29,104 nucleotides of DNA from positions 1-29,104 of IMG/VR virus record IMGVR_UViG_3300035698_012468; one strand, given 5' to 3'. A model generated the notes under the pieces. It was given only the letters and a program-made list of their open reading frames with translations. It ran no database searches and was not told the origin of the DNA. Below are positions 6,384 to 27,010 of this stretch, one piece after another; the stretch's first letter is position 1; the number at the start of each line of letters is the position of its first letter. This stretch comes from a virus. The position numbers and the translations under genes were made by a program.

Positions 6384-6740
6384 GTGATCACATTTAGAAA
6401 GTATTTAAGAGAAGAGTATATTAAGGGTGGATTAGGTGATAATAAATCTATTCAAGATATTGCCACTAAACACGATGTTGACCCATCTGTTATTCTTAAT
6501 GAATTAATTATGGGTATCAAAGTTGAGTTTGAACACGTAAATAAGAAAAAAGATTCAGATGATGACATTATTGATTTTTCTGAAGATCAAATAGTAGATT
6601 TTATTATGGACGATACAGATAATTTTTCTGATGCTGAATTGGGTGTATTAAATAAAAGTTTAGAAATATCTAAGGATCATCTTACAGAGATGTCTGACTA
6701 CTACACAAAATTAGCAGACATGGAAAATGAGGAAGATTAA
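6384..6740 (+). CDS. Small acidic protein with capsid-targeting-like leader
   Basis: The 118-residue frame starts with GTG after AAGGGT. The N-terminus ITFRKYLREE resembles that of the nuclease-like gene at 7943 (ISFKRYLREK) and is a variant of the leader shared by many proteins here. Residues about 14-50 (IQDIATKHDVDPSVILNELIMGIKVEFEHV) look like a small helix-turn-helix-like helical domain that recurs in phage structural proteins; the rest is very acidic and helical. A strong terminator follows the stop. Function is unknown; a role inside the head is inferred only from the leader. Confidence 0.65.
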   Translation: MITFRKYLREEYIKGGLGDNKSIQDIATKHDVDPSVILNELIMGIKVEFEHVNKKKDSDDDIIDFSEDQIVDFIMDDTDNFSDAELGVLNKSLEISKDHLTEMSDYYTKLADMENEED

Positions 6741-6764
6741 ATAAAAATATAGTGTAGTTACAGT

Positions 6765-6808
6765 AAAACACCCAATACTAAAAATTAATTAATATTGGGT
6801 GTTTTTTT
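6765..6808. terminator. Bidirectional intrinsic terminator between convergent genes
   Basis: A perfect 13-bp stem (AAAACACCCAATA with TATTGGGTGTTTT), a 15-base loop, and a T-tract on the plus strand mirrored by an A-tract on the left arm. It separates the plus-strand gene ending at 6740 from the minus-strand gene ending at 6825. Confidence 0.85.
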
Positions 6809-6824
6809 GTGCTTTAATAACTAT

Positions 6825-7943
6825 TTAAAACGAAAAACCATATGACGCACGTGCATTCCATCCCGGAGGTGTTTTTGATTTACTTTTTATAAATTTATAT
6901 ATATCTTTAAAATTAGTTGCGGCTTCCCAAACAAAGAAACGGTCATATACTGAATTCTTATCTTTAGCTGTGTAGAAAATAAAATAGTCAATTTTATCCA
7001 TCTTTATATATACTGTAGTATGTATTGATAAGATAAATTTACATAAATCTGTACTATCCATACTTTTAATATCCTCTTTAAGTACAGTCGCGGCCGCACT
7101 AACTATAACCGGATCCGATATATCAGCATTAATTGCTGCAGTACAAAAATCGTTAGCTAACTTATCAACAGACTCTTTAGCTGTCATTTTACCATCGGTT
7201 ATATTATTCATTTCTTTTTTAGGATCTAATTCTTTTTTAAGATATTCCAACAATCCGGATTTACCAATATATTTTTTACTAACATTTCCAGTCTTTGGTA
7301 GAACTAAATCTGATTTAAACATATCATTTAGTCTTTTAATAAAAGCTTGACCATCAATTTTTCCACTTTTATTAGCTACAGGTCGACCACCGGTTACCTT
7401 TACCTCAACCTTTTTACTACCATATAGTAGATCACCTCCACCTTCACCCCCAGGTTTATTAGTTAAATTAGTAAAAAGACCGAGTACAAACTCACCTTTT
7501 CCTATTGATATACTACCATAGGTATCGTCTGTGTTTGCTATCTCCATAATTGCATCTTTACTCAGACCATATTTTTGCTCATAATAAGAGCCAACATTAG
7601 ATGTAGAGTCATATGAACCACTTTTCATAGATACATTATAAAAGCTTTTATTGTCTATATCATTTTTTAAATTATTCAACTGTTCAGTGGTACCCTTAAA
7701 ATATTTTTTGAATTTAAACTTAACCATCTCAATAAGTTTTTTATTACTATCATATTTACTAGCTACCACAAGTGACTCACATATGTTTTCGAAAATCTTA
7801 GATTGTATTTCATTACTAATACCAACTATACCATCATAGTCATTACTATCTATAATTCCTAGTAGTTTAGCACCTTTAATTTCCTTATCCGAGATATATA
7901 TATTCATATCTTTTTCTCGTAAATATCTCTTAAAACTAATCAT
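6825..7943 (-). CDS. PD-(D/E)XK nuclease-like protein with leader-like N-terminus
   Basis: This 372-residue protein starts ISFKRYLREK, related to the leader family. In the centre, GKGEF (Glu151), GGDLLYG (Asp171) and VEVKV (Glu180-x-Lys182) give the order E...D...ExK expected of the PD-(D/E)XK nuclease fold, with a glycine-rich GGEGGGD before the Asp. This reading is by pattern only. The C-terminal third (IDYFIFYTAKD, FVWEAATNFKDIY) looks like a beta-sheet domain. AAAGGT precedes the ATG. It lies directly downstream of the gp14 neck gene on the same strand, so it may be a late, virion-associated protein. If packaged, it could act on host or superinfecting DNA. Confidence 0.6.
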   Translation of the reverse strand: MISFKRYLREKDMNIYISDKEIKGAKLLGIIDSNDYDGIVGISNEIQSKIFENICESLVVASKYDSNKKLIEMVKFKFKKYFKGTTEQLNNLKNDIDNKSFYNVSMKSGSYDSTSNVGSYYEQKYGLSKDAIMEIANTDDTYGSISIGKGEFVLGLFTNLTNKPGGEGGGDLLYGSKKVEVKVTGGRPVANKSGKIDGQAFIKRLNDMFKSDLVLPKTGNVSKKYIGKSGLLEYLKKELDPKKEMNNITDGKMTAKESVDKLANDFCTAAINADISDPVIVSAAATVLKEDIKSMDSTDLCKFILSIHTTVYIKMDKIDYFIFYTAKDKNSVYDRFFVWEAATNFKDIYKFIKSKSKTPPGWNARASYGFSF

Positions 7944-7965
7944 ATTTTTACCTTTTATTTATTTA

Positions 7966-9027
7966 TTATAAACCATATCCACCATATACACCATCACTAT
8001 CCTCCTGGTCTATACTGTCGACAGCATTTTCATAGTCAAATATCTCATTAGAAGAATCTTCATACCATTGTTTATATTCACTCTTATCAGTAGTTCTTGG
8101 TTCTTCTTGATCATCACCAGGTACATCCTCGGCACTAGGATCCCTACGAACTACATCACATTTCCAAATATATTTTCCCATTAATGGATTTAATCCATCG
8201 GTATTTAAATTTCTATCTGATACTGTTGTTATTTCATATTCTTCTTTATTATTACCGTCACCTATATCCGCATTACCATCCTCAAAGTCTATTCTAAAGA
8301 AATCACCAGCTTGAGGTGCTACATTCCAATATGGACCAGCATCTGTTGCGGGATATTTGAAATATATTACAGGACCTTGTACTGTACCAGTTAATACACC
8401 AGTACCACTGATATCAATAGTACCACTGTAATTACCGGTTAATCTACCAGCTAAATACCTTGTACCATAGTCGTAATAGTTTACATTTTTTATATCGGGA
8501 TTTACAGGTCTTAACTGTGGAATAATATCTTCATCCAAATATCCACTAACATTACCACTTGGACCCATTATATTAGCACTAACAATACCAGATAAATCAC
8601 TATTATAAACCTGTCCGCTTATAACACCCGTAAACCCACTTACTTGAGAATATACTGATGTAGATAGTTGTGTAGATGCTGTTGTACCTATCATATCTTT
8701 GTACTGTTCGTAGAAGTCATCCATTGTGAAATAAATAGCGGCATCACCGTCGGTTTCAATACCCATATTATTTAATAAAAATGAATCACCCAACATTTCC
8801 ATATACACAACCATTGGTGCACTTAAATAATAAGTTGCGGTAGTGTGTTCACCATATACATAATTTGCATAACCGGATGGGACATCATAATAACTATTAT
8901 CAAGTCTAAAATATTTTACATCAATTCCAAAATTATGTATAAGTTCTCTGAAATATTCTTTTTGTAGCCTTCTTTCGGATTCTAAGTTTTGTCTTTTTAA
9001 GAATCTTACTTCATTAATACCAGCCAT
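7966..9027 (-). CDS. 14: Neck protein, T4 gp14 type
   Basis: This 353-residue protein carries the pattern of T4-like neck protein gp14: an N-terminal helix (RRLQKEYFRELI), HNFGIDVKYFRLD, then YGEHTTATYYLSAPMVVY, an internal FLLNNMGIETDGDAAIYFTMDDF block, and a beta-rich, Gly/Thr/Ser-rich middle. gp14 (256 residues in T4) binds gp13 and forms the collar that closes the filled head and joins it to the tail. The protein here is longer because of an insertion at about residues 125-220 with repeated SGxxSG-like strands and an acidic C-terminal tail. AAGGAA precedes the ATG. The partner gp13 is not adjacent but about 7 kb away at 16032-16790, which is unusual. Confidence 0.7.
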   Translation of the reverse strand: MAGINEVRFLKRQNLESERRLQKEYFRELIHNFGIDVKYFRLDNSYYDVPSGYANYVYGEHTTATYYLSAPMVVYMEMLGDSFLLNNMGIETDGDAAIYFTMDDFYEQYKDMIGTTASTQLSTSVYSQVSGFTGVISGQVYNSDLSGIVSANIMGPSGNVSGYLDEDIIPQLRPVNPDIKNVNYYDYGTRYLAGRLTGNYSGTIDISGTGVLTGTVQGPVIYFKYPATDAGPYWNVAPQAGDFFRIDFEDGNADIGDGNNKEEYEITTVSDRNLNTDGLNPLMGKYIWKCDVVRRDPSAEDVPGDDQEEPRTTDKSEYKQWYEDSSNEIFDYENAVDSIDQEDSDGVYGGYGL

Positions 9028-9096: not shown

Positions 9097-9345
9097 ATGA
9101 AATTTACAGAATTATATGAAAACATGACAGAAGCCAAAGCTGCTTGGATTCATGATATTAATATTTTAAAACCTGAAGAGCTAGATAAAAAAGGTATTGA
9201 AAAATTAAAAAAAATAAAGGGTCCTATAGGTTATGATAACAAAGAGGGTCAAAATATACAAATGCTAGTAGGTATGGGAATTATTGAATTATTAGATAAA
9301 AATAATAAAGTAATACCACTAAAATCTAAATTTGATTTCGCATAG
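9097..9345 (+). CDS. Small leader-bearing protein (putative head-packaged protein)
   Basis: This 82-residue protein begins MKFTELYENMTEAKA. The first 13 residues fit the leader family, with a possible prohead-protease site M-T-E|A. The remainder is a small mixed fold with KIKGPIGYDN and two LL/II-rich helices. It is the first of six plus-strand genes downstream of a late promoter box. No function was recognised for the mature part. Confidence 0.65.
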   Translation: MKFTELYENMTEAKAAWIHDINILKPEELDKKGIEKLKKIKGPIGYDNKEGQNIQMLVGMGIIELLDKNNKVIPLKSKFDFA

Positions 9346-9354
9346 GAGAATATA

Positions 9355-9621
9355 ATGAAATTTACAGAACTACATAAACAATTAATGGAAGATTTCGGAG
9401 CCGATTCAGCAGTTGCGGGCGGGAATTTTGGTACTGAGGGTGGTATGGGTTCAGCTGATTATGTTGATGCATCCGTTAATGATCCTGGTGCTAGTAATGC
9501 AATCTATATAGCAACATATGGTAATGAAAAGAAAAAATTCGCGAATAAAGAAAAATTAGCTTTATTCCTAAGAGAAAACCCGGATTGGGAGATTCTAGAT
9601 AAAAAGAAAGAAAAATTATGA
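9355..9621 (+). CDS. Small leader-bearing protein
   Basis: The 88-residue protein begins MKFTELHKQLMEDFG, a variant of the leader with D in place of A/G after the glutamate. AGGAGAATATA precedes the ATG. After a glycine-rich stretch (AGGNFGTEGGMGSADY, residues about 20-36) comes a compact C-terminal section with KKKFANKEKLALFLRENPDW. It overlaps the next gene by four bases (ATGA). Function is unknown. Confidence 0.6.
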   Translation: MKFTELHKQLMEDFGADSAVAGGNFGTEGGMGSADYVDASVNDPGASNAIYIATYGNEKKKFANKEKLALFLRENPDWEILDKKKEKL

Positions 9622-9812
9622 AATTTGATAATATGGTAAAAGATATTAAAGAAGGTACATGGGCTATTAAAGATGAAAAATCTATTGAATCTTTTATTGC
9701 TGATATAGAGAAGTTGAAAAAGAAATATTATAATAAGGTCGGTGATGATGAGGTTTATGACGGATTAGATGCTGCTATAAGTCGTCTAGAAGACCTAAAA
9801 CAAACACTATAA
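9618..9812 (+). CDS. Small helical leader-bearing protein
   Basis: A 64-residue protein starting MKFDNMVKDIKEGTW; I-K-E|G fits the T4 prohead-protease consensus (I/L-x-E before A/G). The mature part would be about 52 residues and looks like a helical hairpin. It starts within the stop codon of the previous gene (ATGA overlap). No known family. Confidence 0.6.
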   Translation: MKFDNMVKDIKEGTWAIKDEKSIESFIADIEKLKKKYYNKVGDDEVYDGLDAAISRLEDLKQTL

Positions 9813-9825: not shown

Positions 9826-10245
9826 ATGACTACTTTTAATAGTCTATGGAGTGAATTAATTAGTACTCTAGATGAAGAAGATGAAGATAAGAAAATTGAA
9901 ATTGAAATGATATCAGCATTATATGTAGATGATGATGGAAATGAATTTTCAATAGATCAATTAAATGCTGATGACGATGAAGAAGAAGAAGATGAAGAAA
10001 TAGTATCTGAAGCTTTAAAAAAGGTTAAAGTAGTACGTGGTGGAAAACGTATGAAAAAGTTTAAAACTAATAAACCTGGGTTTAAAATTCAGATGAAGGA
10101 TGGTAAACCAAAAGAAGTAAAGATGTCATCTAAAGAGAAAATGACAAGGAAAAAAGCAGCAAAAAAAGCTGCTAGGTCTGGAAAATCGAAACGTAAAATG
10201 GCTGTTAAAAAAAGAGCTAAAAGCGTCAAGAAAAGAATTAAATAA
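9826..10245 (+). CDS. Bipartite protein: acidic N-half, extremely basic C-half; possible packaged DNA-binding protein
   Basis: This 139-residue protein is split by charge. Residues 1-62 are acidic (DDDEEEEDEE before residue 59); residues 63-139 are rich in Lys and Arg (KAAKKAARSGKSKRKMAVKKR and similar). The junction reads I-V-S-E62|A63-L-K-K, a plausible prohead-protease site, so cleavage would free a histone-like 77-residue peptide from an acidic propeptide. This is the logic of T4 prohead-core and internal proteins; the parallel is inferred from charge and site only. AAGGATTT precedes the ATG. The N-terminus (MTTFNSLWSELI) is a diverged leader. Confidence 0.65.
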   Translation: MTTFNSLWSELISTLDEEDEDKKIEIEMISALYVDDDGNEFSIDQLNADDDEEEEDEEIVSEALKKVKVVRGGKRMKKFKTNKPGFKIQMKDGKPKEVKMSSKEKMTRKKAAKKAARSGKSKRKMAVKKRAKSVKKRIK

Positions 10246-10270: not shown

Positions 10271-10612
10271 ATGAAATTTGATGAACTATACGAAAGTATT
10301 ATAAAAGAAGAAGACGAAGAGACTAAGACTAAATTATATTGGGAGGTTGTTTTTCCTGTAAAACTAAACAAGAATGTTAAAGATAAACTAGTATATAAAC
10401 CAACCTTATTATATGCAATTGAAGAACTTACTGAAAAGGATATACCAACTGGTAAATATTTTTCTGAGGATCCTAATGCAGGTGTTGAATTTGTCGGTAA
10501 AACACCTGAAGATGTTATTAAGAAAATAACAAAACATATATTAGATAATGAACATGTTAATAGCGTTGGTAAACCTAAAATTGATAAAAATGCAAACCCT
10601 TACGCTGATTAA
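10271..10612 (+). CDS. Small leader-bearing protein
   Basis: This 113-residue protein begins MKFDELYESIIKEEDEE: the leader is clear but is followed by Glu, not Ala/Gly. The rest reads like one small alpha/beta domain (YWEVVFPVKLNKNV, YAIEELTEKDIPTG, GVEFVGKTPEDVIKKI). It is the last gene before a terminator-like hairpin. The function of the domain was not recognised. Confidence 0.6.
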   Translation: MKFDELYESIIKEEDEETKTKLYWEVVFPVKLNKNVKDKLVYKPTLLYAIEELTEKDIPTGKYFSEDPNAGVEFVGKTPEDVIKKITKHILDNEHVNSVGKPKIDKNANPYAD

Positions 10613-10759: not shown

Positions 10760-11170
10760 ATGAAAAGACATACAGACTTATTAAACAACCGCATAAAAGA
10801 AATTAATATTGAACTAGTTCAAGATCTTAAATTGAATGAAATGAATATTAAAGAGAAATCCCTATCCACACCTGCTCTAAAAGCTAAATGGCTTCAAATA
10901 TCCTTTGAAGAAGAACGTTATTTAAATAGAATAAAAGACGTTAAGGATAAGTTAACTAAAAAATATGTAGAGCAATTTGGGCAACGTGGTAAACCAAAAT
11001 TCATTACTGAGCAAGAAGCTGGTGCTGACAATGAGATTGGTAATTTAAATAAAGCCATTAATGAACAAAAAGATGTAGTAAGGTATTTAGCTGGTATATT
11101 GGAAATTATGAAATCATTTGGATGGGATTTGAAAAATGCAACAGATTTAATAAAGTTGGAGTGCGCTTAA
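10760..11170 (+). CDS. uvsY: Recombination mediator UvsY
   Basis: The 136-residue protein matches T4 UvsY (137 residues) in length and layout: KAKWLQISFEEERYLNRIKDVKDKL parallels the UvsY KWL...IKKEMLRIE region; GQRGKPKF parallels its SGRGDGDEF; and the end (KDVVRYLAGILEIMKSFGWDLKNATDLIKLE) parallels UvsY's C-terminal oligomerisation helix. UvsY helps UvsX recombinase replace gp32 on single-stranded DNA during recombination-dependent replication. UvsW lies 1.7 kb downstream on the same strand, as uvsY and uvsW are near neighbours in T4. No good ribosome-binding site is seen before ATG 10760, and a terminator hairpin abuts it; the alignment to UvsY still favours this start. The stop overlaps the converging gene by four bases. 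Confidence 0.75.
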   Translation: MKRHTDLLNNRIKEINIELVQDLKLNEMNIKEKSLSTPALKAKWLQISFEEERYLNRIKDVKDKLTKKYVEQFGQRGKPKFITEQEAGADNEIGNLNKAINEQKDVVRYLAGILEIMKSFGWDLKNATDLIKLECA

Positions 11171-12222
11171 TCTTCTAATAAACCTTCTTTATCAACTTCC
11201 TTAGTAAAGATTTTAATTGCCCTTTTCAATACATTGCGTTTAGATTTTACTGCAATACCTTGTTTCTCAGCTTTATCTTCAAATTTAGATGTTAAATTCC
11301 ATTCGATAAACCTTTTTAACTCAGTCTTATCAAACCTATAGTTTTTATCTCTTGATTTACTATCCAATATTTCATTTTTCAATTCGGCTATTAAGGTTGT
11401 AATAGTAGGGCCAAATTCGGTTTTTGATCCATAATAATCACCTAAATTAGAAGACGCCATTGTACGTATGCTATCATATGTTTGAAATCCGGATAATTTT
11501 AAATAACTTTGGACCCAGTGTTGTAGTTCATGTTCAATTATACCATCAATAAGATTCATTGTCTTTTGAAATTCAACCATTGCTCTTTCAACACCATTTT
11601 GATTAGAAAAAGCCTTTAAGGCGTTACTTAAATTAACAGAAAGTAAATCCATTTGCCATTTGCCATTATAAGGCATTTTTTCATGATCTTCTATTCTAAC
11701 TGTAAACTCATCTTCTTTCCTGGGAACAAAATCTATTTTTTCTTCATCAGGTATAAAATGTGGTGGTGTATTAATCGCCTTTTGCATTAATTCCGGTAGA
11801 TCTTTAACCTTAAATTTAATCATAGTTATTGAATTTTTAGTCCCTAAATCTGCTGGTTTAACCTTATATTTTGATTTAATTAACTTGATTAAACTTAATA
11901 TTTCATTTATAGCCTTCTCGGGATTTTCTATATCTTTCAATTCAGTTTCACGGTGTCCGGGTGATAACATATAAGACATCCAATCTGAATCTTTTTTTAC
12001 TTTTACATTTGGTTTATATTTACCTTTTGGATCAAACCTATCTTTTTTCTTTTGTGCTAATTTTAACTCATTTAATACGCTTTGTAATTTAAATAATAAA
12101 TATGAGAAAGCGGTTGTATGCACAAAATCGATTACTTCTTTTAGTATGTCTCTAGGAATTGGTAGTATGCCTCCTACACCAACTTTTTCTAATAGCAAAT
12201 TGCATAATTTTTCAAATTTCAT
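11167..12222 (-). CDS. Zincin-like metallopeptidase candidate with capsid-targeting-like leader
   Basis: This 351-residue protein begins MKFEKLCNLLLEKVG, a leader-family N-terminus. At residues 231-235 it has HELQH inside a helix (IDGIIEHELQHWVQSY), the HExxH zinc-binding motif of zincin peptidases. A possible third ligand lies in TLIAELKNEI downstream. The N-terminal 200 residues show no known domain. Presence of the leader suggests it could be packaged in the head and act in the host after injection, or process virion proteins. A TATAAATA box occurs upstream on the minus strand at 12235-12242 but is very close to the ATG. The zinc site is seen; peptidase activity is inferred. Confidence 0.65.
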   Translation of the reverse strand: MKFEKLCNLLLEKVGVGGILPIPRDILKEVIDFVHTTAFSYLLFKLQSVLNELKLAQKKKDRFDPKGKYKPNVKVKKDSDWMSYMLSPGHRETELKDIENPEKAINEILSLIKLIKSKYKVKPADLGTKNSITMIKFKVKDLPELMQKAINTPPHFIPDEEKIDFVPRKEDEFTVRIEDHEKMPYNGKWQMDLLSVNLSNALKAFSNQNGVERAMVEFQKTMNLIDGIIEHELQHWVQSYLKLSGFQTYDSIRTMASSNLGDYYGSKTEFGPTITTLIAELKNEILDSKSRDKNYRFDKTELKRFIEWNLTSKFEDKAEKQGIAVKSKRNVLKRAIKIFTKEVDKEGLLED

Positions 12223-12854: not shown

Positions 12855-14288
12855 ATGTCAAATTCTATTAACTTTACATATTCTAGGAATCGCGGATTAA
12901 TTGAAGCGAATAATATTGAAATATTTGATGAATTAAGAGAGTCGATTTCATCACCAAATAAAGCTGCTAAATATTCTCCTTATGCTCCGTCTGTTATATG
13001 CCCTGTATCACCTTTAGGAGGATTCTTACCTGGACTAACTAAAGAATTAGCAGAGAGAATAAGAGAGATAGATCCTAATGTAAATCTTACAATAAGTAAA
13101 TCATTACTTAACGTAGCTCAACCAATATCATATTCTGGTGATATTATAATGCCAGGTGATCCTAAATTTGTATATAGAGACTACCAATTAATGGGAATAA
13201 AAACAGCTTTATTAAATGGTAGGGGTATTGTATTATTACCTACTGGCAGCGGAAAGGGATTAATAATATTCGGTATAGCGTCAATACTTATTAAGAAATT
13301 AAATGTAAAAAATATTCTTGTACTAGTACCTAATATTCAATTAGTAAGACAGTTATATGGTGACTTTAAGGATTATGGTACAGATTTAAATATTTCAATG
13401 TTTAGTAGTTTCGCTAAAACATTAACACTTAAAGATAGTAATGTTATAATATCTAATAGACAGTGGCTAGAAAGACATAATGATGAATTACCACCAATTA
13501 ATGCATTGCTAATTGACGAAACCCATCAGGCTAAGAAAACTAATAAAATTTCAAAATATATTAATAAACTTAATACTAATATAAGAATTGGATTTACTGG
13601 AACATTACCTGATGATATAGAGGATGAATGGCATGTCAAGGGTATAATAGGTACCGTATTACATACTAGAGATGTATATGATTTACAGGATAAAGGATAT
13701 CTAGCTAATATTAATATTACTCCAATAAAATTTATACATAAAAATAAACCTAGATTTGTATATGTAACACTAGAAGATTATAAAAAAGCGTTTCATGATG
13801 AGTGGACCCATATTGAAAAAGAGGAACAGAGTAATAAGTCTATAATAAAGATAGTTAAACAGTTAAAGGGTAATACTCTAGTGTTATTTGACCATATTAT
13901 ACATGGTAATAAATTATTTTCATTACTTGATCATAGACATAAATATTTTATTGATGGTAGTATTGACCTAAATATACGTGAAGATATAAGACATGAAATG
14001 GAAACTAATCCAAACGTAATTACAATAGCGAATACACGCTGCTTCGGGACAGGGATTAATATTAAGGCAATTGATAATATAGTATTAACTATGCATGGTA
14101 AAGGTGCTACTAAGATTATTCAATCAATTGGTAGGGGGTTAAGATTAAAGGCTGGTAAAAGTAAAGTGAATTTAATAGATATATATCATAATTTCAAGTA
14201 TAGCGAAAAACACTTCTTACATAGAAAAGATCTATATAAGAAGTATTATGATATTAATATTACAAATGTAGGTGAAATATCTATTTAG
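12855..14288 (+). CDS. uvsW: UvsW-type superfamily 2 DNA/RNA helicase
   Basis: This 477-residue helicase has motif I LLPTGSGKG (about 127-135), a RDYQ Q-motif-like element (108-111), motif II DETH (221-224, the DExH box), motif III FTGTLP (247-252) and motif VI QSIGRGLR near the C-terminal third. Length and order fit T4 UvsW (about 500 residues), which unwinds R-loops and branched DNA, drives fork regression and helps switch from origin- to recombination-dependent replication. The N-terminal 100 residues correspond to UvsW's small DNA-binding domain by position. It directly follows the HD hydrolase and ends with a four-base overlap with a converging gene. Confidence 0.85.
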   Translation: MSNSINFTYSRNRGLIEANNIEIFDELRESISSPNKAAKYSPYAPSVICPVSPLGGFLPGLTKELAERIREIDPNVNLTISKSLLNVAQPISYSGDIIMPGDPKFVYRDYQLMGIKTALLNGRGIVLLPTGSGKGLIIFGIASILIKKLNVKNILVLVPNIQLVRQLYGDFKDYGTDLNISMFSSFAKTLTLKDSNVIISNRQWLERHNDELPPINALLIDETHQAKKTNKISKYINKLNTNIRIGFTGTLPDDIEDEWHVKGIIGTVLHTRDVYDLQDKGYLANINITPIKFIHKNKPRFVYVTLEDYKKAFHDEWTHIEKEEQSNKSIIKIVKQLKGNTLVLFDHIIHGNKLFSLLDHRHKYFIDGSIDLNIREDIRHEMETNPNVITIANTRCFGTGINIKAIDNIVLTMHGKGATKIIQSIGRGLRLKAGKSKVNLIDIYHNFKYSEKHFLHRKDLYKKYYDINITNVGEISI

Positions 14289-14539
14289 AGAGCTTTGAGA
14301 GCTATACCTAACTCATCAACTATAATACCCTCAATATCATCACCAGCATTCGGCATACTCTTAATATAATTAACTATATCCTTATGCTGTGCAATATTTT
14401 TCGCGTATTCATACATCTGGTCTACACCAGTCATATTCATTGATTTCATTTCCATTGCATATTCTTTAATTTCTTGTAAGAACATTTTCTGGTTCATTTT
14501 ACCTTCAACAATATCTTCATATAGTTCTTCAAATTTCAT
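14285..14539 (-). CDS. Small leader-bearing protein
   Basis: The start at 14539 (MKFEELYEDIVEGKM) is chosen because it restores the leader and follows GAAGGGAATACAA; an upstream Met (14554) lies on the binding site itself. I-V-E|G fits a prohead-protease site and would leave about 72 residues, rich in Met and helical (MEMKSMNMTGVDQMYEYAKNI in that region). The stop overlaps the uvsW stop in the opposite direction. Function is unknown. Confidence 0.65.
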   Translation of the reverse strand: MKFEELYEDIVEGKMNQKMFLQEIKEYAMEMKSMNMTGVDQMYEYAKNIAQHKDIVNYIKSMPNAGDDIEGIIVDELGIALKAL

Positions 14540-14550: not shown

Positions 14551-14790
14551 TCATTTAATATGTTGTTTAATTGTAGATTTAATTGCTGCGTGTATATCAC
14601 TTATTAGTGCATCATAAAAATCCATATATCTATCGTTATCATCAGAAAAATAACTGGATATATCATCAGAAAATGAATCATCAGAAAATGCTAGTTCATC
14701 TAGTGCCTCTGATATAGTTTTATATAATGCTTTGCTTTCCTTTGTATCTTCTGTTACTGTTATTTCGTCGTATATTTTTGTAAATTTCAT
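14551..14790 (-). CDS. Small acidic leader-bearing protein
   Basis: A 79-residue protein beginning MKFTKIYDEITVTED. A second possible cleavage site, I26-S-E28|A29, follows. The centre is rich in Asp and Ser (SDDSFSDDISSYFSDD) and the C-terminus is a short helix with Lys/His. Acidic, short-lived propeptides and core proteins of phage heads look like this, but nothing proves it. It lies in a minus-strand run of leader-bearing genes. Confidence 0.6.
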   Translation of the reverse strand: MKFTKIYDEITVTEDTKESKALYKTISEALDELAFSDDSFSDDISSYFSDDNDRYMDFYDALISDIHAAIKSTIKQHIK

Positions 14791-19748: not shown

Positions 19749-21220
19749 TTTTTTACTCCTTTAAAATATTCTTTTGGATTAATTGGACTGTTAACATAAT
19801 CTCCATCCCATTCCCAATCCTTTTCATAATGACCTTTTTTCTTAGGGTCTAAAATTAATCCTTTTACCCATGTACCATCTTCCCAAGTACCCTTTTCCCA
19901 TGTACCATCTTCCCAGAGTCCATTATACCAAAACCCCCCTTGCCAAATACCATCATTCCATACACCACCATACCACATTCCACCATACCAAACCCCATTT
20001 TCCCAGGCGCCACCTTCCCAAGTACCATATTCCCAAACCCCATCTTGCCAAGTACCGTCTTTCCAAGTTCCCTCTTCCCATGTACCACCTTCCCAATCAC
20101 CTTCAAGCCAAGTTCCATCTTGCCAAGTACCGTCTTTCCAAGTTCCGTCTTTCCATTCACCATTTACCCAAGTACCATATTTCCAAACCCCATCTTCCCA
20201 TATTCCATCCCACCAAGTACCATCTTCCCATGTCCCAGATTTCCATATTCCTTCAAACTCCCCACCGTTCCAAGTACCAGATTTCCATATTTGATCACCA
20301 CTATATCCCCTTTTACTCCGTTGGGCCACCTTTTTCCCAGGTTTCCCACTTTTCATTACTCCATCTCCAGCCTTAACAGATTTGTTTTTTCTTAACCACG
20401 ATTGAAAATCTTCACCACCAAACATCCCACCAGAATTCTTAATTATAAACGCCGAAAACCCCCTCAACCCGATACTTATGTCTTTATATATTTCAAATAG
20501 AGATTTCATATTAGCTCTTCTATCAAGTGATTGAAGAACCCAAGACCAACCACCTTTGTAATAAGATTTCAATTTATTAAATACTGTATCGTTGTTGTGT
20601 TGTAAATGATAGGCATAATCAATAGCTACCATTTTATCATGATCTGATTTAGCATTATTTAAATGCTGCCATCCTTTAGCTATTTCAGCCCATTTCTTAC
20701 CACCATACCCACCTTTCCATTTCAAAACATTAAATGCCTTTTCAGCTAACACAGCTATTTCTCTATCTGATAGTTTAGTAGCTTTTAATGCTTTAAAACT
20801 TTCAAAATAACCTCTTTCATTATCCTTAAATCTATTAATTAGTTCATCACGACTTGCATCCATAAATCTATCTGATACTACACCTGATAGTTTATATTGC
20901 TGTGTATACTTCTTAATAAAATTCTTATAACCATTTTTCTTAAAAAACGCAATAATAGTTTTAGCGTTATTAACATCAAATACATGTCTAAATTCAGCGG
21001 CAATAGCAAAAAAGATACTATCTTTTAAATGAGGTATTAAATAATTATAAAGATCAGTTTTAGCGTCAAGTAATGCTGTTTTCAAAACCACATCATCAGG
21101 TAACGGTAAATTAACCAACATATAAAAGTCATATAGCATTTCCTGCTTATCTTTAGGTACCGAATACTTATAATTGCTATAAGCTTCGTTGATAAAATTA
21201 TATAATTTATAAAATCTCAT
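19745..21220 (-). CDS. WxxGx-repeat protein 2, capsid-targeting-like leader
   Basis: The 491-residue paralogue starts MRFYKLYNFINEAYSN, with I-N-E|A as a cleavage candidate that fits the (I/L)xE|A consensus exactly. The shared N-terminal domain covers about residues 15-300 and the array has about 29 units, one only four residues long (FEGI between WNGGE and WKSGT). The C-terminal cap LDPKKKGHY...SPINPKEYFKG matches protein 1. The stop overlaps the next gene's ATG region. A basic linker of about 20 residues (KPGKKVAQRSKRGYSG) joins domain and array. It lies second in the three-gene tandem set. Confidence 0.75.
   Translation of the reverse strand: MRFYKLYNFINEAYSNYKYSVPKDKQEMLYDFYMLVNLPLPDDVVLKTALLDAKTDLYNYLIPHLKDSIFFAIAAEFRHVFDVNNAKTIIAFFKKNGYKNFIKKYTQQYKLSGVVSDRFMDASRDELINRFKDNERGYFESFKALKATKLSDREIAVLAEKAFNVLKWKGGYGGKKWAEIAKGWQHLNNAKSDHDKMVAIDYAYHLQHNNDTVFNKLKSYYKGGWSWVLQSLDRRANMKSLFEIYKDISIGLRGFSAFIIKNSGGMFGGEDFQSWLRKNKSVKAGDGVMKSGKPGKKVAQRSKRGYSGDQIWKSGTWNGGEFEGIWKSGTWEDGTWWDGIWEDGVWKYGTWVNGEWKDGTWKDGTWQDGTWLEGDWEGGTWEEGTWKDGTWQDGVWEYGTWEGGAWENGVWYGGMWYGGVWNDGIWQGGFWYNGLWEDGTWEKGTWEDGTWVKGLILDPKKKGHYEKDWEWDGDYVNSPINPKEYFKGVKK
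19859..20287. repeat. 15-bp tandem repeats encoding about 29 W-x-x-G-x units
   Basis: Same type of array as at 18171-18797, with fewer units and one 12-base unit. Units such as WKDGT and WEDGT recur more exactly here, pointing to recent duplication within the array. Confidence 0.9.
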
Positions 21221-22546
21221 TTATTTTGTTCCTTTAAAATATTCCTTAGGGTTGATTGTACTGTTAATATAATCACCCTTCCATTTCCAGTTTGAATTAT
21301 AATTACCCTTTTTATCAGGATCATAAATTAGTCCTCTTTCCCACTCACCGTCTTCCCATGTACCACTTTTCCATGTACCACTCTTCCAAATTCCATTTTT
21401 CCATACACCAGTTTTCCAAACTCCATCTTCCCATGTACCATTAAGCCATGTACCATCATCCCAAAGACCGGAACGCCAAAAACCATTCTCCCATGTACCG
21501 TCTTCCCATTTACCACCTTCCCATACTCCGTCTTCCCAGGTACCCTTATTCCATACTCCATATTCCCACTTACCGTCTTCCCATACTCCACCTTTCCATA
21601 CTCCACCACTCCAAACATTATTCGAAGCCTTCTTTTTAGCTTTCTTTGGTTTAGAAATAATACCTCTACCAGACGTTTCTGACTTATTCTTTCTTAACCA
21701 TGATTGAAGATCTTCGCCACCAAACATCCCACCAGAATTTTTAATTACAAATGCTGAGAAGCCTCTTAGACCAATACTTATATCCTTATATATCTCAAAT
21801 AAGGATTTCATATTAGCTCTTTTATCTAAAGATTTTAGAATCCAATCCCATCCGAATTTATAATAAGATTTTAGTTTATCAAATACCGTGTCATTATTAT
21901 GTTGTAGGTGATAAGCATAATCAATAGCTATCATCTTATCATTATCAGAAACAGCGTCATTCAGGTGCTGCCATCCCTTAGCTATTTCAGCCCATTTCTC
22001 ACCACCAAAACCTCTTTCCCATTTTAGATTACTAAAGACCTCATCAGCTAATTTAACGATTTTATCATCAGGTATTTTAGTAGCCTTTAATGCTTTATAA
22101 CTTTCAAAATATCCTTTTTCATTATCTCTAAATCTATTAGTTAGTTCATCCTTATCACTATCAGAAAAATCACTTGAGGACTTCATTAATATTTTGTATT
22201 GCTTATTATAATTTTTTATAAAATTCTTATAACCTTTTTTCTTAAAAAATTCGGCTATATCCGACGATGTATTATTAGAAAATAAGTATCTAAATTCAGC
22301 TGAAATAGCAAAGAAAATACTGTCCTTTAGGTGCGGAATTAGATAGTTATATATATCGGTTTTTGCATCTAGAAGAGATGTCCTTAAAACTACATCATCA
22401 GGTAATGGTAAATTAACTATCATATAGAAGTCATATAATAATTCTTGCTTATCTTTAGGTACTGAATACTTATAATTGTTAAAAGCTTCTTTTATTATTA
22501 TAGAAGAATATGCATTTTCAATTATTTTTCTATTATTTGATATCAT
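21221..22546 (-). CDS. WxxGx-repeat protein 3 (shortest array)
   Basis: The 441-residue first gene of the tandem set has a longer, diverged N-terminus (MISNNRKIIENAYSSIIIKEAF) that lacks the MKF start but keeps I-K-E|A before the shared NNYKYSVPKDKQ. The shared domain follows, then a basic linker (KPKKAKKKA), about 19 W-x-x-G-x units and the cap (YDPDKKGNY...INPKEYFKGTK). AAAGGA precedes the ATG. It diverges from the terminase gene at 22586 across a 39-base gap. Confidence 0.75.
   Translation of the reverse strand: MISNNRKIIENAYSSIIIKEAFNNYKYSVPKDKQELLYDFYMIVNLPLPDDVVLRTSLLDAKTDIYNYLIPHLKDSIFFAISAEFRYLFSNNTSSDIAEFFKKKGYKNFIKNYNKQYKILMKSSSDFSDSDKDELTNRFRDNEKGYFESYKALKATKIPDDKIVKLADEVFSNLKWERGFGGEKWAEIAKGWQHLNDAVSDNDKMIAIDYAYHLQHNNDTVFDKLKSYYKFGWDWILKSLDKRANMKSLFEIYKDISIGLRGFSAFVIKNSGGMFGGEDLQSWLRKNKSETSGRGIISKPKKAKKKASNNVWSGGVWKGGVWEDGKWEYGVWNKGTWEDGVWEGGKWEDGTWENGFWRSGLWDDGTWLNGTWEDGVWKTGVWKNGIWKSGTWKSGTWEDGEWERGLIYDPDKKGNYNSNWKWKGDYINSTINPKEYFKGTK
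21332..21613. repeat. 15-bp tandem repeats encoding about 19 W-x-x-G-x units
   Basis: Third and shortest array. Together the three arrays give 19, 29 and 42 units in genome order from right to left. Confidence 0.9.
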
Positions 22547-22585: not shown

Positions 22586-23494
22586 ATGGATATTTATAGG
22601 AATAACGAAAATTTAAAAGCACCTAATGCATCTGAATATGTAAGTATTGATGAATTTGAATATAGGACTGCAGAGATTATAAAATGTCGTAATGACCCGG
22701 TTTATTTTGCAAAAAAATATTTTACTATAGTTACAATCGATTCTGGGAAACAAATTATAGACCCTTATCCTAAGCAAATAGAATTGGTTAATATGATGTG
22801 TGCTGAAACACGTATTGTTGTATTAGCATCTCGACAAAGTGGTAAAACAACAGCATATAATATATTCGCGTTATGGCAGACTATATTTTATAAGGATCAA
22901 AACATATTAATATGTGCTAATACCGGTCCATCCGCATCCGATTTCGTATCTAGAATTAAATTGGCTTATGAACTATTACCAATGTGGTTAAAACCTGGGG
23001 TAGTTGAATGGAATGTAAGACGAGTTTCATTTTGTAATGGTAGTTCAATAGGTAGTAAAACAACTGGCCCCTCTGTACGTGGTACGACTGCTAGCACATT
23101 AATAATTGATGAAATGGCATTTATTGAACATAGTGTTGAAAAGGATTTTTGGGAAGCCGTGTATCCAGTAATTTCATCTTCTAAAAAATCTAAAGTTATT
23201 ATTGTAAGTACTCCTAATGGTACGGGTAATATGTTCTATGAACTATATAGCAAAGCTGAATTAAAAATATCTGATAATGTAGGATTTAAACCCTTTAGAA
23301 TTGATTGGTGGGATGTTCCGGGTAGAGACGAAGAATGGAAAATACAAACAATTGCTTCTTATAATGGTGATCTACGTGCCTTCGCACAGGAGTTCGGAAA
23401 TTGTGTAAGTGGTGATACTTTTATAGATATATATGATACTGTTGAAAAGAAATATCAAAGAATTAAAATAAGTGATTTTTATGAATTGTTGTAA
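22586..23494 (+). CDS. 17: Large terminase (gp17-type) N-terminal ATPase half fused to an N-intein
   Basis: Residues 1-272 are the ATPase domain of TerL: Walker A ASRQSGKTT (81-89), Walker B LIIDEMAF (172-179), coupling motif STPNGTG (208-214), and AQEFGN just before the split. From Cys273 (codon 23402-23404) a 30-residue N-intein, CVSGDTFIDIY...KISDFYELL, ends in a stop at 23492-23494. Only intein block A is present; the rest is on the gene at 23673. The motor domain alone cannot package DNA, so trans-splicing with the second half is needed to give a 591-residue terminase, close to T4 gp17 (610). This matches the atypically split TerL inteins such as AceL-TerL. No ribosome-binding site is evident. 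Confidence 0.9.
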   Translation: MDIYRNNENLKAPNASEYVSIDEFEYRTAEIIKCRNDPVYFAKKYFTIVTIDSGKQIIDPYPKQIELVNMMCAETRIVVLASRQSGKTTAYNIFALWQTIFYKDQNILICANTGPSASDFVSRIKLAYELLPMWLKPGVVEWNVRRVSFCNGSSIGSKTTGPSVRGTTASTLIIDEMAFIEHSVEKDFWEAVYPVISSSKKSKVIIVSTPNGTGNMFYELYSKAELKISDNVGFKPFRIDWWDVPGRDEEWKIQTIASYNGDLRAFAQEFGNCVSGDTFIDIYDTVEKKYQRIKISDFYELL

Positions 23495-23645
23495 ATTGTG
23501 TAAAAAAGAAATAACTAAAAATCGAACGTATTGTGGATATTTGTGTTCATCTAAAGATAAAGACTATAGTAACCATAAAACAGTTATAAAAGAGCAATAT
23601 AAAAAGACTCAATATTATTTAAATAAAGAAAATATAATTACGTAA
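23481..23645 (+). CDS. 54-residue zinc-finger ORF between the intein halves, probable homing-endonuclease remnant
   Basis: ATG 23481 overlaps the end of the N-intein frame and encodes MNCCKLCKKEIT...YCGYLCSSKD, i.e. CxxC followed by CxxxC, the zinc-finger pattern seen at the start of phage HNH endonucleases, including the one at 2577-3482. The frame ends at TAA 23643 with no nuclease core. The next codons continue in the same frame, without another stop, into the C-intein gene, so TAA alone separates them. I read it as what is left of an endonuclease gene once lodged between the intein halves. It may also be a translated small protein. Confidence 0.5.
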   Translation: MNCCKLCKKEITKNRTYCGYLCSSKDKDYSNHKTVIKEQYKKTQYYLNKENIIT

Positions 23646-23672
23646 CAAGAAACATATGATATATTAAGTAAA

Positions 23673-24965
23673 ATGGAAAAGAAATTAACAAATAGATATA
23701 AAGTACTTACGCCTAATGGGTATAAAGATTTTACTGGTATTCGAAAAGATATTGTTTATGAAACATTAAAAATTATATTTAATAATAATGAAGAAATTAT
23801 TTGTACTAAAGAACATATTTTTATATCTGATAATCAAGAAAAAAAAGCTTATCAATTAAAAAAAGGTGATACGATTGATGGTAAATGGGGAAAGCAGCAG
23901 ATGGTTAAATATATTACACCTCTAACACCAAAAACAGATGTTTATGATTTATATAATGTTGATGGGGGTAATATATATTACACAAACGATGTTGTTTCAC
24001 ATAATTGTTTTCACGGTAGTAGTTTCACACTTATTAATGATAAAATACTATCAAAATATAGAAAGTATATGGAAAATCATACTGTCGAACCCAAATTAAT
24101 TACCTTTAATGAAAATGACTTATTTGAAACTAAAATGTGGCAACCACCACAAAAGGATAGAACATATATAATAGGTGCTGATGTTGGTGAAGGTATTGGT
24201 GGTGATTATAGTACTATATTGGTATTTGAAATATCTGATTTAACTAACATAAATTTAGTAGCAACATATGGTAGTAATAGGGTTTCAACAACTGAATTTG
24301 CTTTTATGTTAGCAAAAATAGGATCGATTTATAACAAAGCTTATATAGCATGCGAGTGTAACTCTATTGGTGATGGGGTTCTTAAAATCCTGTGGAATGT
24401 ATACTTATATGAAAATATAGTCAGGGTAGAACAAAAAAATAGAGCACGAATTGGCATATACAGTCATAATGCTATTAAAACTAAAGCTTGTTTATGGTTA
24501 AAAGATTTAATGAATAATAGTAATATTAACATTACTATTAATGACGGTAATCTTATATATGAGATGGGTTGGTTTGAAAAGAAAGTTCCTAGTCAACACA
24601 CAATTTTTAGAGCTGTTGGTGGTAAACATGATGACTATATGTTATCATTTATTTGGGCTATGTACGTATTAAATCCCAGCATTATTGAAAATTATTATAA
24701 CGTTGTTGGATATGCGACTAATGAATATGGTATGGCCTTTCCAACTAAAATAACTAGTTATTCATCATCTTATTATGAAGAAGAGGGTTCATCATTAATA
24801 CAAAGCACAGATGTAGATAATATATATCGTAAATTCACAGAAAAGGATATTGATAATTTGCATACAAACACATCACCTATACCTAATGAAGACGCACTAC
24901 CAAGACAAATCGGGTTTTTTAGTGATGGTAATGATGATAATTATAATGATGACGCGTCATGGTAG
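23673..24965 (+). CDS. 17: C-intein fused to the large terminase C-terminal nuclease half
   Basis: Residues 1-111 form the C-intein: RYKVLTPNGYKDFTGI, block B ICTKEHIFIS, KKGDTI, then block F/G VYDLYNVDGG and VVSHN ending at residue 111. The +1 residue is Cys112 (codon 24006-24008), and the terminase resumes with CFHGSSFTLI. The nuclease domain shows IIGADVGEGIGGDYST (first Asp), ACECNSIGDG (Glu) and GGKHDDYM (Asp), the three acidic metal ligands of the RNase H-like terminase nuclease. After splicing it would rejoin AQEFGN to CFHGSS, as in intact gp17 proteins. ATG 23673 is the only Met before the intein motif; upstream sequence gives only a weak ribosome-binding site. The C-terminus is acidic. 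Confidence 0.9.
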   Translation: MEKKLTNRYKVLTPNGYKDFTGIRKDIVYETLKIIFNNNEEIICTKEHIFISDNQEKKAYQLKKGDTIDGKWGKQQMVKYITPLTPKTDVYDLYNVDGGNIYYTNDVVSHNCFHGSSFTLINDKILSKYRKYMENHTVEPKLITFNENDLFETKMWQPPQKDRTYIIGADVGEGIGGDYSTILVFEISDLTNINLVATYGSNRVSTTEFAFMLAKIGSIYNKAYIACECNSIGDGVLKILWNVYLYENIVRVEQKNRARIGIYSHNAIKTKACLWLKDLMNNSNINITINDGNLIYEMGWFEKKVPSQHTIFRAVGGKHDDYMLSFIWAMYVLNPSIIENYYNVVGYATNEYGMAFPTKITSYSSSYYEEEGSSLIQSTDVDNIYRKFTEKDIDNLHTNTSPIPNEDALPRQIGFFSDGNDDNYNDDASW

Positions 24966-24991: not shown

Positions 24992-25528
24992 ATGCCAATA
25001 GATCATTTACCAATTACAGGTACAAATTTAAACCTTGCAACCGCTACAAGATGGGTCGCAGTTATACCATATAACATGATTAACAATGATTTGAATTCTA
25101 GAAATGTAGTATTTAATTTAACAAGTTTTAATATGCCTGAAATGGAAGTTGGTACAACCACAATTACATATTTAGGTTATGAATATGAAATACCTAATTT
25201 TATAAGAAGCCAATCAAAAGAAATAACATTCGAATATCTTATAAGTAGTGATTGGCATCAATGGAAATTATTATATTATTGGTTACAAAAGATAGTTAAG
25301 GAAGAAGGTGCTGGTAGTAATATTGACACATTAAGCGAGGTGGTGCTACCTATTCGAGTAATGTTACTAAGTGAATTTAAAAACCCTATATTTGAAATAA
25401 TATATAAAAATTGTTGGGTAAAAAGATTTGGTGCTGTATCTATGGATTATCAAGATACAGAAGGTTCTGTTATAAAACATGATTTCACATGTAGCTATAG
25501 TGATTTTGAGTTTAATGACAATTTTTAG
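24992..25528 (+). CDS. 19: Tail tube protein, gp19 type
   Basis: The 178-residue protein has the fold pattern of T4-like tube protein gp19 (163 residues): beta-rich, starting with RWVAVIPYNM, a central FNMPEMEVGTTTITYLGYEYEIP that fits the tube's lateral loop, then a helix (WHQWKLLYYWLQKI) and closing strands (FEIIYKNCWVKRFGAVSMDYQ, FTCSYSDFEF). Stacked hexamers of such a protein form the channel for DNA. AAAGGATT precedes the ATG. It directly follows TerL, where T4 has the sheath gene 18 in between; no sheath gene is seen here. Assignment is from pattern and context. Confidence 0.75.
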   Translation: MPIDHLPITGTNLNLATATRWVAVIPYNMINNDLNSRNVVFNLTSFNMPEMEVGTTTITYLGYEYEIPNFIRSQSKEITFEYLISSDWHQWKLLYYWLQKIVKEEGAGSNIDTLSEVVLPIRVMLLSEFKNPIFEIIYKNCWVKRFGAVSMDYQDTEGSVIKHDFTCSYSDFEFNDNF

Positions 25529-25535: not shown

Positions 25536-25543
25536 TATAAATA
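25536..25543 (+). promoter_or_regulatory. T4-type late promoter box TATAAATA
   Basis: It lies 28 bases before ATG 25572 with a good AAGGAG in between, the best-spaced plus-strand late promoter candidate in the window. Confidence 0.55.
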
Positions 25544-25571
25544 ATTTAACAATACATCAAGGAGAATTATA

Positions 25572-25904
25572 ATGATTCGTAATAGAAAATTAGAAGAAGC
25601 ATATCGTAAGGTTGCCTCACAACAAACATCTGAAGTTGAAGTAGAGTTATCTAAAACAGTTAAAGTAAAAGATGAAGATTATCGTACCATTATGGAAGCA
25701 TATACTAATGTTAATGAAGCTGACTATAAGAAAAATACTTTAAAATTTATTGATGACCTTTTAAAAGGTGATGACGTAGAAAAAGTAAAAGACTTTCTCC
25801 AAGGAATAAGAGATTATTTAGATGAAAATGGTTATCTTTCACCTGGACAACAAGCAGCCTTAGGTAAGATTAAAGGTAATCTAAACCACGGTGCTGGTAA
25901 ATAA
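25572..25904 (+). CDS. Possible prohead core protein with several protease-like sites
   Basis: This 110-residue helical, charged protein has three places that fit the T4 prohead-protease pattern: L7-E-E9|A10, I40-M-E42|A43 and V47-N-E49|A50. It has a strong AAGGAG and a late promoter box. Position after the tube gene is where T4-like genomes carry portal and prohead-core genes (67, 68), so a core protein is a reasonable guess. The C-terminal part (GYLSPGQQAALGKIKGN) is unlike the leader family. Its last base is shared with the next gene. Confidence 0.6.
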   Translation: MIRNRKLEEAYRKVASQQTSEVEVELSKTVKVKDEDYRTIMEAYTNVNEADYKKNTLKFIDDLLKGDDVEKVKDFLQGIRDYLDENGYLSPGQQAALGKIKGNLNHGAGK

Positions 25905-26170
25905 TGGAACTAGTTTATAATCTTTTTAATAAGTTAAACGGACTAATAACTCTCCAGGAGCCGTATATTCTCTCGGAGGATAGCGGTTTAACATACTACG
26001 AACTAAGGCGTTTCGTAACATTGTTATATCGCAATTCTAAAGAAAAATCTACTAAAGAGGTTCTTGGAGATTTATTAAAAGTATTAACTGTTTTAGAAAT
26101 AAGAAAACAGCCTGTTCCAGTAATTAAAAAATTAAAATCAAATAGCCCAGAGATATTTTCTGGTGACTAG
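25904..26170 (+). CDS. Hypothetical small helical protein
   Basis: This 88-residue protein starts inside the previous stop (TAATGG) and has no leader. It reads as a helical protein: VYNLFNKLNGLITL, YELRRFVTLLYRNSKEK, LGDLLKVLTVLEI. The codons for CGG-AGG-like GGAG sequences (25960s) are less AT-rich than its neighbours. No family was recognised; its place among head genes suggests an assembly role, which is only a guess. Confidence 0.55.
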   Translation: MELVYNLFNKLNGLITLQEPYILSEDSGLTYYELRRFVTLLYRNSKEKSTKEVLGDLLKVLTVLEIRKQPVPVIKKLKSNSPEIFSGD

Positions 26171-26180
26171 AGGTAAATAA

Positions 26181-26474
26181 ATGAAATTTAATGAAGTATA
26201 TGATAATTTTATTAATGAAGCGATGTCAGTAGATGTCAGATGGGCTCTAAAACGTATTACGTCATTTAATAAGAACCTGTTCCCATATAATACTGATAAT
26301 GAAGAACCTAATCTTAAACAGCTTACAGAAGATATTGTTAAAGATTTAGGATATAGACAAACCTCCTCTAACGTTAATAGTGCAATAGATCATCTAGGAG
26401 CATCTAGAGGTAGTTCGGATGCGATTCCGGAGAATAAAACCGTTATTAAAGAATTAGATAGGTTATTAAAATGA
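26181..26474 (+). CDS. Small leader-bearing protein
   Basis: A 97-residue protein beginning MKFNEVYDNFINEAMS, with I-N-E|A as an exact (I/L)xE|A site. The mature part is about 83 residues (VRWALKRITSFNK, DIVKDLGYRQ), helical and without a known domain. AGAGGTAAATAA precedes the ATG. It overlaps the next gene by ATGA. Confidence 0.65.
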   Translation: MKFNEVYDNFINEAMSVDVRWALKRITSFNKNLFPYNTDNEEPNLKQLTEDIVKDLGYRQTSSNVNSAIDHLGASRGSSDAIPENKTVIKELDRLLK

Positions 26475-27010
26475 AATTTAAAGAATTATATGAAAGTGTT
26501 GTAAATGAAGCTAAGGGTGCAGATTGGACCAAATCTTGGACATTAGCAATTATTGATATTGATAAGTCTGAGTTTAAAGATAATTTACAGACAGTTATAG
26601 ATCAGATAAAAGGTGAATTATCACCAGGTTATGAACTAGAAGAAATAAGCTTACCTAACGCTCATCAACTAAGAATGAAAATTAAAGATGAGAAAGAAGC
26701 AAAATCTTTAGTTAAAAAATATCATCCAAAATATATGGACGGTATTATATTCTCAGAGTTAATTAGAAGATGGTATATTACTAAATTTGAAATGTATACT
26801 GGGCAAAAGGGTTGGAAAACAGCATTAAAATCAATTGAAGCTATTTGTAAAAAAGAAAATCTACCCTACTTCTATGATGTAAACAAAAAAAATGAAAACG
26901 AGTCACTGAACGTTAAGTTTGATAATGAAGAAACAGCTGGACAGTTTGCGGATAGATTTAAGGATGCGGATGTCGATTTCGTAGATGTTGACGGTAAAGC
27001 ATGGTATTAG
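26471..27010 (+). CDS. Leader-bearing two-domain protein
   Basis: This 179-residue protein begins MKFKELYESVVNEAKG, leader with V-N-E|A. The mature part seems to contain two similar halves of alternating beta and alpha character (WTLAIIDIDKSEFKDNLQTVIDQI...YHPKYMDGII and MYTGQKGWKTALKSIEAI...LNVKFDNEETAGQFADRF), each with a hydrophobic strand, helix, strand pattern; the resemblance is by eye. Start is within the previous stop (ATGA). Function is unknown; capsid loading is inferred. Confidence 0.65.
   Translation: MKFKELYESVVNEAKGADWTKSWTLAIIDIDKSEFKDNLQTVIDQIKGELSPGYELEEISLPNAHQLRMKIKDEKEAKSLVKKYHPKYMDGIIFSELIRRWYITKFEMYTGQKGWKTALKSIEAICKKENLPYFYDVNKKNENESLNVKFDNEETAGQFADRFKDADVDFVDVDGKAWY

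Follow-up and report, generated by a model that had tools for sequence, protein, structure and literature searches.

Why should about eighteen proteins of one phage, with bodies that are mostly unrelated, begin with nearly the same few residues? The question is raised by a 29,104-base fragment of the IMG/VR record IMGVR_UViG_3300035698_012468, here called the window, which comes from an uncultured virus and stands alone as a record. An earlier note had proposed that this common start is a capsid-targeting leader with a prohead-protease-like site, and that its bearers form a modular injected arsenal. The leader principle is already known from T-even internal proteins: IPI-III of T4, which have the leader alone in common, are injected and act as inhibitors of different type IV restriction enzymes (PMC12373910), and the diverse T-even internal proteins have only the targeting sequence in common (PMC3012670). 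The novelty here lies in the type of leader, in how large and dense the set is, in the larger bodies and in a joint caught inside the leader. The source is an uncultured T4-like giant phage, represented by a fragment only, and its genes place it in the T4 superfamily. The best explanation, which we hold to be quite probable on sequence grounds, is a lineage-specific capsid-targeting propeptide that would be cut by a gp21-type prohead protease.

The leader and the genes that carry it

All 19 open reading frames listed in the earlier note are present at the starts given there, those at 17367 and 14539 being inner starts and the start codon at 6384 being GTG. The core leader M(K/R)Fx(E/K)(L/V/I)Y, with the consensus MKFxELYE, is found on about 14 genes; the gene starting at 15072 has a T4-type leader (MKSYKEVINEA), looser leaders stand at 6384, 7943 and 9826, and the gene starting at 22546 is indeed a diverged case, in which the leader is absent and the site (IKE↓A) is retained. 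The leader genes and one associated DNA block are listed below, with ↓ at the predicted cut point and the basis of the entry in brackets.

6384-6740, plus strand: looser leader MITFRKYLRE↓E, DUF5661 body (DUF5661 E 1.3e-11)
6825-7943, minus strand: looser leader MISFKRYLRE↓K, 372-residue body, family not recognised (open reading frame list, site scan)
9097-9345, plus strand: leader gene, MKFTELYENMTE↓A (profile, site scan)
9355-9621, plus strand: leader gene, MKFTELHKQLME↓D; orthologue L081:1830, MKFTELYKSIVE↓G (profile, body comparison)
9618-9812, plus strand: leader gene, MKFDNMVKDIKE↓G (profile, site scan)
9826-10245, plus strand: looser leader MTTFNSLWSEL, acidic N-terminal ~60 residues, then a very basic C-terminus
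10271-10612, plus strand: leader gene, MKFDELYESIIKE↓E (profile, body comparison)
11167-12222, minus strand: leader MKFEKLCNLLLE↓K, HELQH (zincin-like) body homologous to the virion proteins GAP32_317/CBB_322
14285-14539, minus strand: leader gene, MKFEELYEDIVE↓G, leader start inside a 109-bp block in common with L081
14526-14634, minus strand: the 109-bp block, 95% identity to L081 (DNA alignment)
14551-14790, minus strand: leader gene, MKFTKIYDEITVTE↓D (profile, site scan)
14800-15072, minus strand: T4-type leader MKSYKEVINE↓A (weak match to phrog_2667 'internal head protein', E 0.062; site scan)
15121-15339, minus strand: leader gene, MKFLELYEDIMGE↓G (profile, site scan)
15336-15956, minus strand: leader MKFNGLYKLLIE↓Y, cytidylyltransferase-like body (phrog_395 E 8.4e-10; PF01467)
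17077-17367, minus strand: leader gene, MRKFTELYEETIKN, no convincing site (site scan)
18066-19748, minus strand: leader MRFNKLYNFLTE↓A, N-terminal domain and WxxGxW repeats, trio member 1
19745-21220, minus strand: leader MRFYKLYNFINE↓A, trio member 2
21221-22546, minus strand: diverged leader MISNNRKIIENAYSSIIIKE↓A with the site retained, trio member 3
25572-25904, plus strand: possible further member, MIRNRKLEE↓A, directly after the tail tube gene (sequence only)
26181-26474, plus strand: leader gene, MKFNEVYDNFINE↓A (profile, site scan)
26471-27010, plus strand: leader gene, MKFKELYESVVNE↓A (profile, site scan)

That some eighteen proteins have a leader in common is borne out far above chance, both in the window and in L081, a close relative with its own leader set. 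An 8-residue profile (residues 1-8), trained on the leaders of the two, gives a score of at least 7 to 16 of the 49 window genes against 0.30 expected from shuffled N-termini, two of the 16 (1706 and 3748) being low scorers absent from the earlier list. Elsewhere the same profile matches 0 of 278 genes in T4, 9 of 581 in RaK2 (1.55 expected), 7 of 583 in GAP32 (1.7 expected) and 1 of 236 in P-RSM4. Unsupervised N-terminal clustering, from which links between homologous bodies were excluded, returns one window cluster of 11 genes where shuffles give at most 2. A strict rule, namely M(K/R), an aromatic residue and (hydrophobic)xE(A/G/S), picks out 9 window genes against 0.0 expected and 4 genes in L081, and on the whole T4 genome it picks out ipII and ipIII and nothing else. 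It might be argued that the likeness is due to chance or to the composition of an AT-rich genome, in which genes often start Lys-, Phe- and Glu-rich, but composition-preserving shuffles of the N-termini yield 0-2 genes against 9-16 observed, which refutes this argument and leaves it a negligible probability.

The leader is not found equally on replication enzymes: the clamp loader, UvsY and UvsW are without it, and it is absent also from the terminase large subunit (TerL), tail tube, neck and sigma genes of the window. A short leader is common to otherwise unrelated proteins, as in internal proteins with a capsid-targeting sequence. No clear multi-gene leader set of the window kind was found in RaK2, GAP32 and P-RSM4 by profile, strict rule or clustering, so the set is not universal; clustering on 7-8 residues only missed T4 itself, and small sets therefore lie below the limit of that method. 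Leader scans by DNA pattern gave chance matches too, for example to an integrase (L343) and to an enzyme of the ATP-grasp type (L384), and single matches of this kind without phage context were not used. In T4 (NC_000866, 18966-19130, minus strand) the hypothetical gp61.1 starts MKTFKEFIKEDM, which resembles the capsid-targeting sequence.

The predicted cleavage site

In residues 6-24, 10 of the 19 leader genes have the site (I/L/V/M)xE↓(A/G). Its frequency is 2 of 26 among the other genes of the window and 3 of 155 among body stretches of equal length, and 2000 shuffles give a mean of 0.8 and a maximum of 5. By the exact (I/L)xE↓(A/G) rule the number is 7 of 19, the other three requiring V or M. 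When genes are clustered by residues 2-9 and the site is tested in residues 8-22, which barely overlap, it is present in 7 of 12 clustered genes versus 5 of 37 others in the window (p=0.004), and in 4 of 5 versus 1 of 14 in L081 (p=0.006). The claim of a prohead-protease-like site on the set holds as an enrichment and not for every member, for A or G stands at P1' in only about half, and in most of the other leaders the residue after (hydrophobic)xE is D, E, K or Y.

The W-repeat family shows what is kept when leaders diverge. Its window sites are INE↓A, LTE↓A and, behind a quite different leader, IKE↓A; the copy in G020 has LKE↓G, and homologues in a 595-kb uncultured phage have LDE↓G and INE↓V. 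A four-sequence alignment has only two invariant leader residues, M1 and the P1 Glu. As far as these alignments go, the predicted cleavage site outlasts replacement of the leader.

In T4 IPIII the first 10 residues suffice for packaging, residues 4 and 7 serving for targeting while 8 and 10 direct cutting, and Asp at position 10 stops cutting without stopping targeting (PMC9026906). This last result lends some weight to an alternative in which the leader targets the head or another part of the virion, such as neck or baseplate, and is never cut; so do the members in which A/G does not follow the Glu, and the leader genes that adjoin gp25/baseplate genes in L327 and L332. Nevertheless, in two body families no other leader feature is conserved as well as the Glu site, and we consider an uncut leader improbable.

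A link to virion proteins

The product of 11167-12222 (MKFEKLCNLLLE↓KVGVGGILPIPRDIL, with HELQH downstream) aligns from residue 10, the predicted cut point, onward with CBB_321, CBB_322 and GAP32_317 (hhalign probability 96.1%, E 3.3e-9), and phrog_34216 ties it to the CBB/GAP32 proteins independently (E 4.8e-8). Its body is thereby homologous, the HELQH motif included, to the HELQH virion proteins of phrog_22033/18596/34216. Mass spectrometry of CBB virions detected CBB_322 with 30 unique peptides, the highest number in the table, and CBB_320 with 4 (PMC5259590 Table 4); the CBB numbering was matched via the neck protein CBB_201 and the sheath protein CBB_204.

Like the window protein, CBB_321/322 and GAP32_316/317 have the HELQH body and, at the same junction, an (I/L)xE↓A-type site. 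The sites at the homologous junction read LLE↓K in the window and LQE↓A, INE↓A and LDE↓A in the others, behind leaders that differ, and XacN1 has MKTSFRQFLAE↓S there. CBB_322 has 61-62 residues before the site, unlike the short window leader; CBB_320 starts MQKKELLNAILE↓AIAPTDV and its RaK2 counterpart MNYNELYNTIME↓AIAPTDV, both near the window leader.

Bodies exchanged behind a common start

Once the first 20 residues are taken off, relatedness of bodies within the window is confined to 18066-19748, 19745-21220 and 21221-22546 (57-60% identity), so that the bodies are unrelated as had been claimed except for one paralogous trio (starts 19748, 21220 and 22546), and the independent bodies number 17. 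The three paralogues (18066-22546, minus strand) have long WxxGxW (MORN-like) repeat tails with differing repeat numbers. The recognisable bodies are DUF5661, the cytidylyltransferase-like protein, the HELQH protein, the W-repeat trio and the acidic/basic 9826-10245 protein, which has a second site, VSE↓A, at the acidic/basic junction (ISE↓A in its L081 orthologue). No homologues of the 6825-7943 and 9826-10245 proteins were found in cultured phages, and AlphaFold2 gave no usable model for 6825-7943 (pLDDT 34), in which a nuclease motif may be guessed at, or for the W-repeat trio (pLDDT 39).

Between the window and L081 only two pairs of bodies match (9355/L081:1830 and 9826/L081:3276), the flanking core genes being 65-79% identical, and 11167-12222 has no L081 counterpart between UvsY and the next gene. 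The 109-bp block at 14539 is identical to L081 at 104 of 109 positions, and both of its flanks are at the random level (34-37%). Within it lie the end of the gene upstream, the ribosome-binding site and four to five codons from the start of the leader, and the L081 leader gene 9296 (MKFSEQYENIINEAAAVF) enters the same block out of frame. Since the block ends at leader codon 4-5 between unrelated flanks, the recombination joint lies inside the leader codons, which we read as direct evidence of cassette swapping and which supports the modularity proposed in the earlier note.

An alternative is that the repeated start is a feature of the DNA, namely a ribosome-binding and start region or a recombination patch, with no role for the peptide. 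The start regions of window and L081 do align as DNA, and F3 is always encoded by TTT (22/22). Yet the mean pairwise DNA identity across leader genes is 71% in codons 1-8 compared with 40% in the upstream 40 bases and 36% in codons 9-30, the codons of L6 and Y7 vary synonymously, the distance of the site behind the leader varies, and homologues with unrelated leaders keep the site only. A purely DNA-level cause is therefore very improbable in our judgement.

In L360, three tandem genes (5805-8576, minus strand) have a window-type leader, and encode a 2H-phosphoesterase similar to the anti-CBASS protein Acb1 (PF13563 E 9.4e-11; Acb1 6.5e-6, just under the Acb1 cut-off), a protein without assignment and a lysozyme-like protein. 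They are a lead for candidate counter-defence cargo, and not proof of it. An assignment of L360:6341-7540 as an ADP-ribosyltransferase was rejected, its motifs being seen by eye only with no family match.

Proposed packaging, cleavage and delivery

The gene for the prohead protease was sought: gp21 is absent from the 29-kb window and present in relatives. PF03420 (gp21) matches were found in T4, RaK2, GAP32, CBB, P-RSM4 and XaC1, as well as in contigs G001-G005, G007-G011, G014-G018, G020 and G021. The gp23 N-termini of gp21-bearing relatives have plausible sites such as LRE↓A, LFE↓G, LNE↓A and LFE↓S, and in G020 some 5-9 kb separate the W-repeat copy from the gp23, gp22 and gp21 genes of that contig.

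From these data we infer the following course. F3 and L6/Y7, aromatic or hydrophobic and one helical turn apart, would attach the precursor to the scaffold core of the prohead; a gp21-type protease would cut after (I/L/V/M)xE, so that the mature bodies are freed inside the head; and some bodies at least would enter the next host together with the DNA. The bodies themselves are swapped as cassettes, the common joint being the ribosome-binding site together with the leader codons. Delivery is the least certain of these steps, and we favour it only slightly over its absence, so the word 'arsenal' should be taken as a possible interpretation of the set. Capsid targeting with processing by a prohead protease is well supported by the strict rule that is specific in T4, by the homologue detected in virions, by the site outlasting leaders, and by the gp21 and gp23 genes of relatives.

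Several points weigh on the other side. The fragment has no protease, scaffold or major capsid gene, and the T4-type late promoter motif is not enriched in it (6 vs 4.9 expected). The profile was trained on the same genes that it counts, A/G is found at P1' in only about half of the set, and the 17077-17367 gene is without a good site. Furthermore, the HELQH homologues of GAP32 and CBB do not have the MKFxELY leader itself, and detection in virions is known only for a homologue of one body, in relatives.

The leader proteins might instead be structural components of the head core, like gp67 and gp68, which are cut and then retained or degraded and not delivered. DUF5661 genes adjoin gp21 in L347 and G015, the 9826-10245 protein, acidic and then basic and with an internal site, is built like a core protein, and CBB_322 is annotated simply as structural. 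The size of the set, the unrelated bodies and the presence or absence of genes between two close relatives fit variable cargo better, however, as do enzyme-like bodies (cytidylyltransferase, HELQH) compared with a conserved core; we regard a core role as rather unlikely.

Comparison with known systems

The window set is like T4 IPI, IPII, IPIII and Alt in its short N-terminal leader, unrelated bodies and variable gene content and, for part of its members, in the (I/L)xE↓(A/G) site, and it differs in that the leader is MKFxELYE where T4 has MKTYQEF and in that several bodies are larger and enzyme-like. The earlier statement that it is far larger than the T4 set is right, since 29 kb contain about 18 such genes and the 169 kb of T4 only 3, with the qualification that at least ten T-even internal proteins are known (PMC12373910) and that giants of the SPN3US type process several head proteins too. 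In SPN3US/phiKZ-type giants several head proteins are processed by the prohead protease and ejected (PMC5694885), but mostly by way of long propeptides (>100 residues in several), with no single common short leader. The virion proteins CBB_320, CBB_321, CBB_322 and GAP32_316, GAP32_317 of RaK2-like jumbo phages differ in that their leaders are not of the MKFxELY type and are not common to a large set in those phages.

Leader sets in other large phages

Unsupervised clustering found other leader clusters on unrelated proteins in giant relatives of T4: 17 members in G004 (at most 2 in shuffles), 35 in G018 (at most 4), about 85 in LR756508 (at most 16) and 79 in G001 (at most 5); the own set of T4 gave 5 versus 2-4 in the null. 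Homologues of T4 or cyanophage genes are rarer among cluster members (6/184) than among other genes (120/1590; p=0.017), and site carriage varies among the clusters. A general picture is conceivable, in which large phages of the T4 superfamily have a lineage-specific packaging code, namely a short leader of their own on ten to dozens of virion-delivered proteins that are swapped at the leader, and the cargo may include enzymes and counter-defence candidates. We put this forward tentatively, as somewhat less probable than not, and as a lead, the link to the head being putative for the LR756508 and G001 clusters. If the capsid-targeting reading of the leader is right, the N-terminus alone would identify the virion cargo of uncultured giant phages, dozens of uncharacterised genes would become testable candidates for proteins of the first minute of infection (counter-defence, host takeover), the leaders would offer new tags with which proteins could be loaded into phage heads, and recombination at a common leader would be a route to new cargo.

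Several N-terminal families were seen in these genomes. In G001 (L305-L324), about 45-79 proteins start M(E/K)ILKSEQYINEKLNI(K/Q)PV(S/T)K(D/E)RL, which is longer and has no obvious T4-type site. The 484-kb uncultured phage LR756508.1 (L439, L441-L465) has the leader MKxxExKLRxIIRxEI...E on many small proteins, several of their genes being directly beside its gp21. G007 and G020 have the common N-terminus MKIRxGFV(S/T)NSSSSSFI on 4-6 proteins per genome, and a gene run in G018 (47730-56191, minus strand) has an MKFxDLLNE-type leader, with NUDIX-like and CCA-nucleotidyltransferase-like members recognised by eye.

Other genes of the window

The window also has the following genes, which are without the leader.

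4524-5447, minus strand: clamp loader
10760-11170, plus strand: UvsY
12855-14288, plus strand: UvsW, intact in the window
16032-16790, minus strand: neck protein Ad2/gp13
22586-24965, plus strand: large terminase (TerL), interrupted by an intein-like sequence
24992-25528, plus strand: tail tube
27953-28723, minus strand: sigma factor

Among phage records, the neck protein is nearest to RaK2/GAP32-type jumbo phages (~34% identity), and a search for the full genome or close relatives of the window phage found L081 as the sole close relative.

Intein-like sequences occur at several places. The large terminase subunit (22586-24965, plus strand) consists of two open reading frames with an intein-like sequence between them (CVSGDTF... 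to VVSHN↓C, the arrow here marking its end) and a small Cys-rich frame at 23472-23645 between the halves, an arrangement that resembles a fractured gene with a split intein. At 3-845 (minus strand), cut by the window end, a ParM/actin-like gene has an intein N-terminal region (TIGR01445 E 4.4e-11). UvsW of L081 (6030-8772, plus strand) is likewise in two open reading frames with intein-like ends, and a free-standing 290-residue endonuclease-like frame (7032-7904) lies between its parts.

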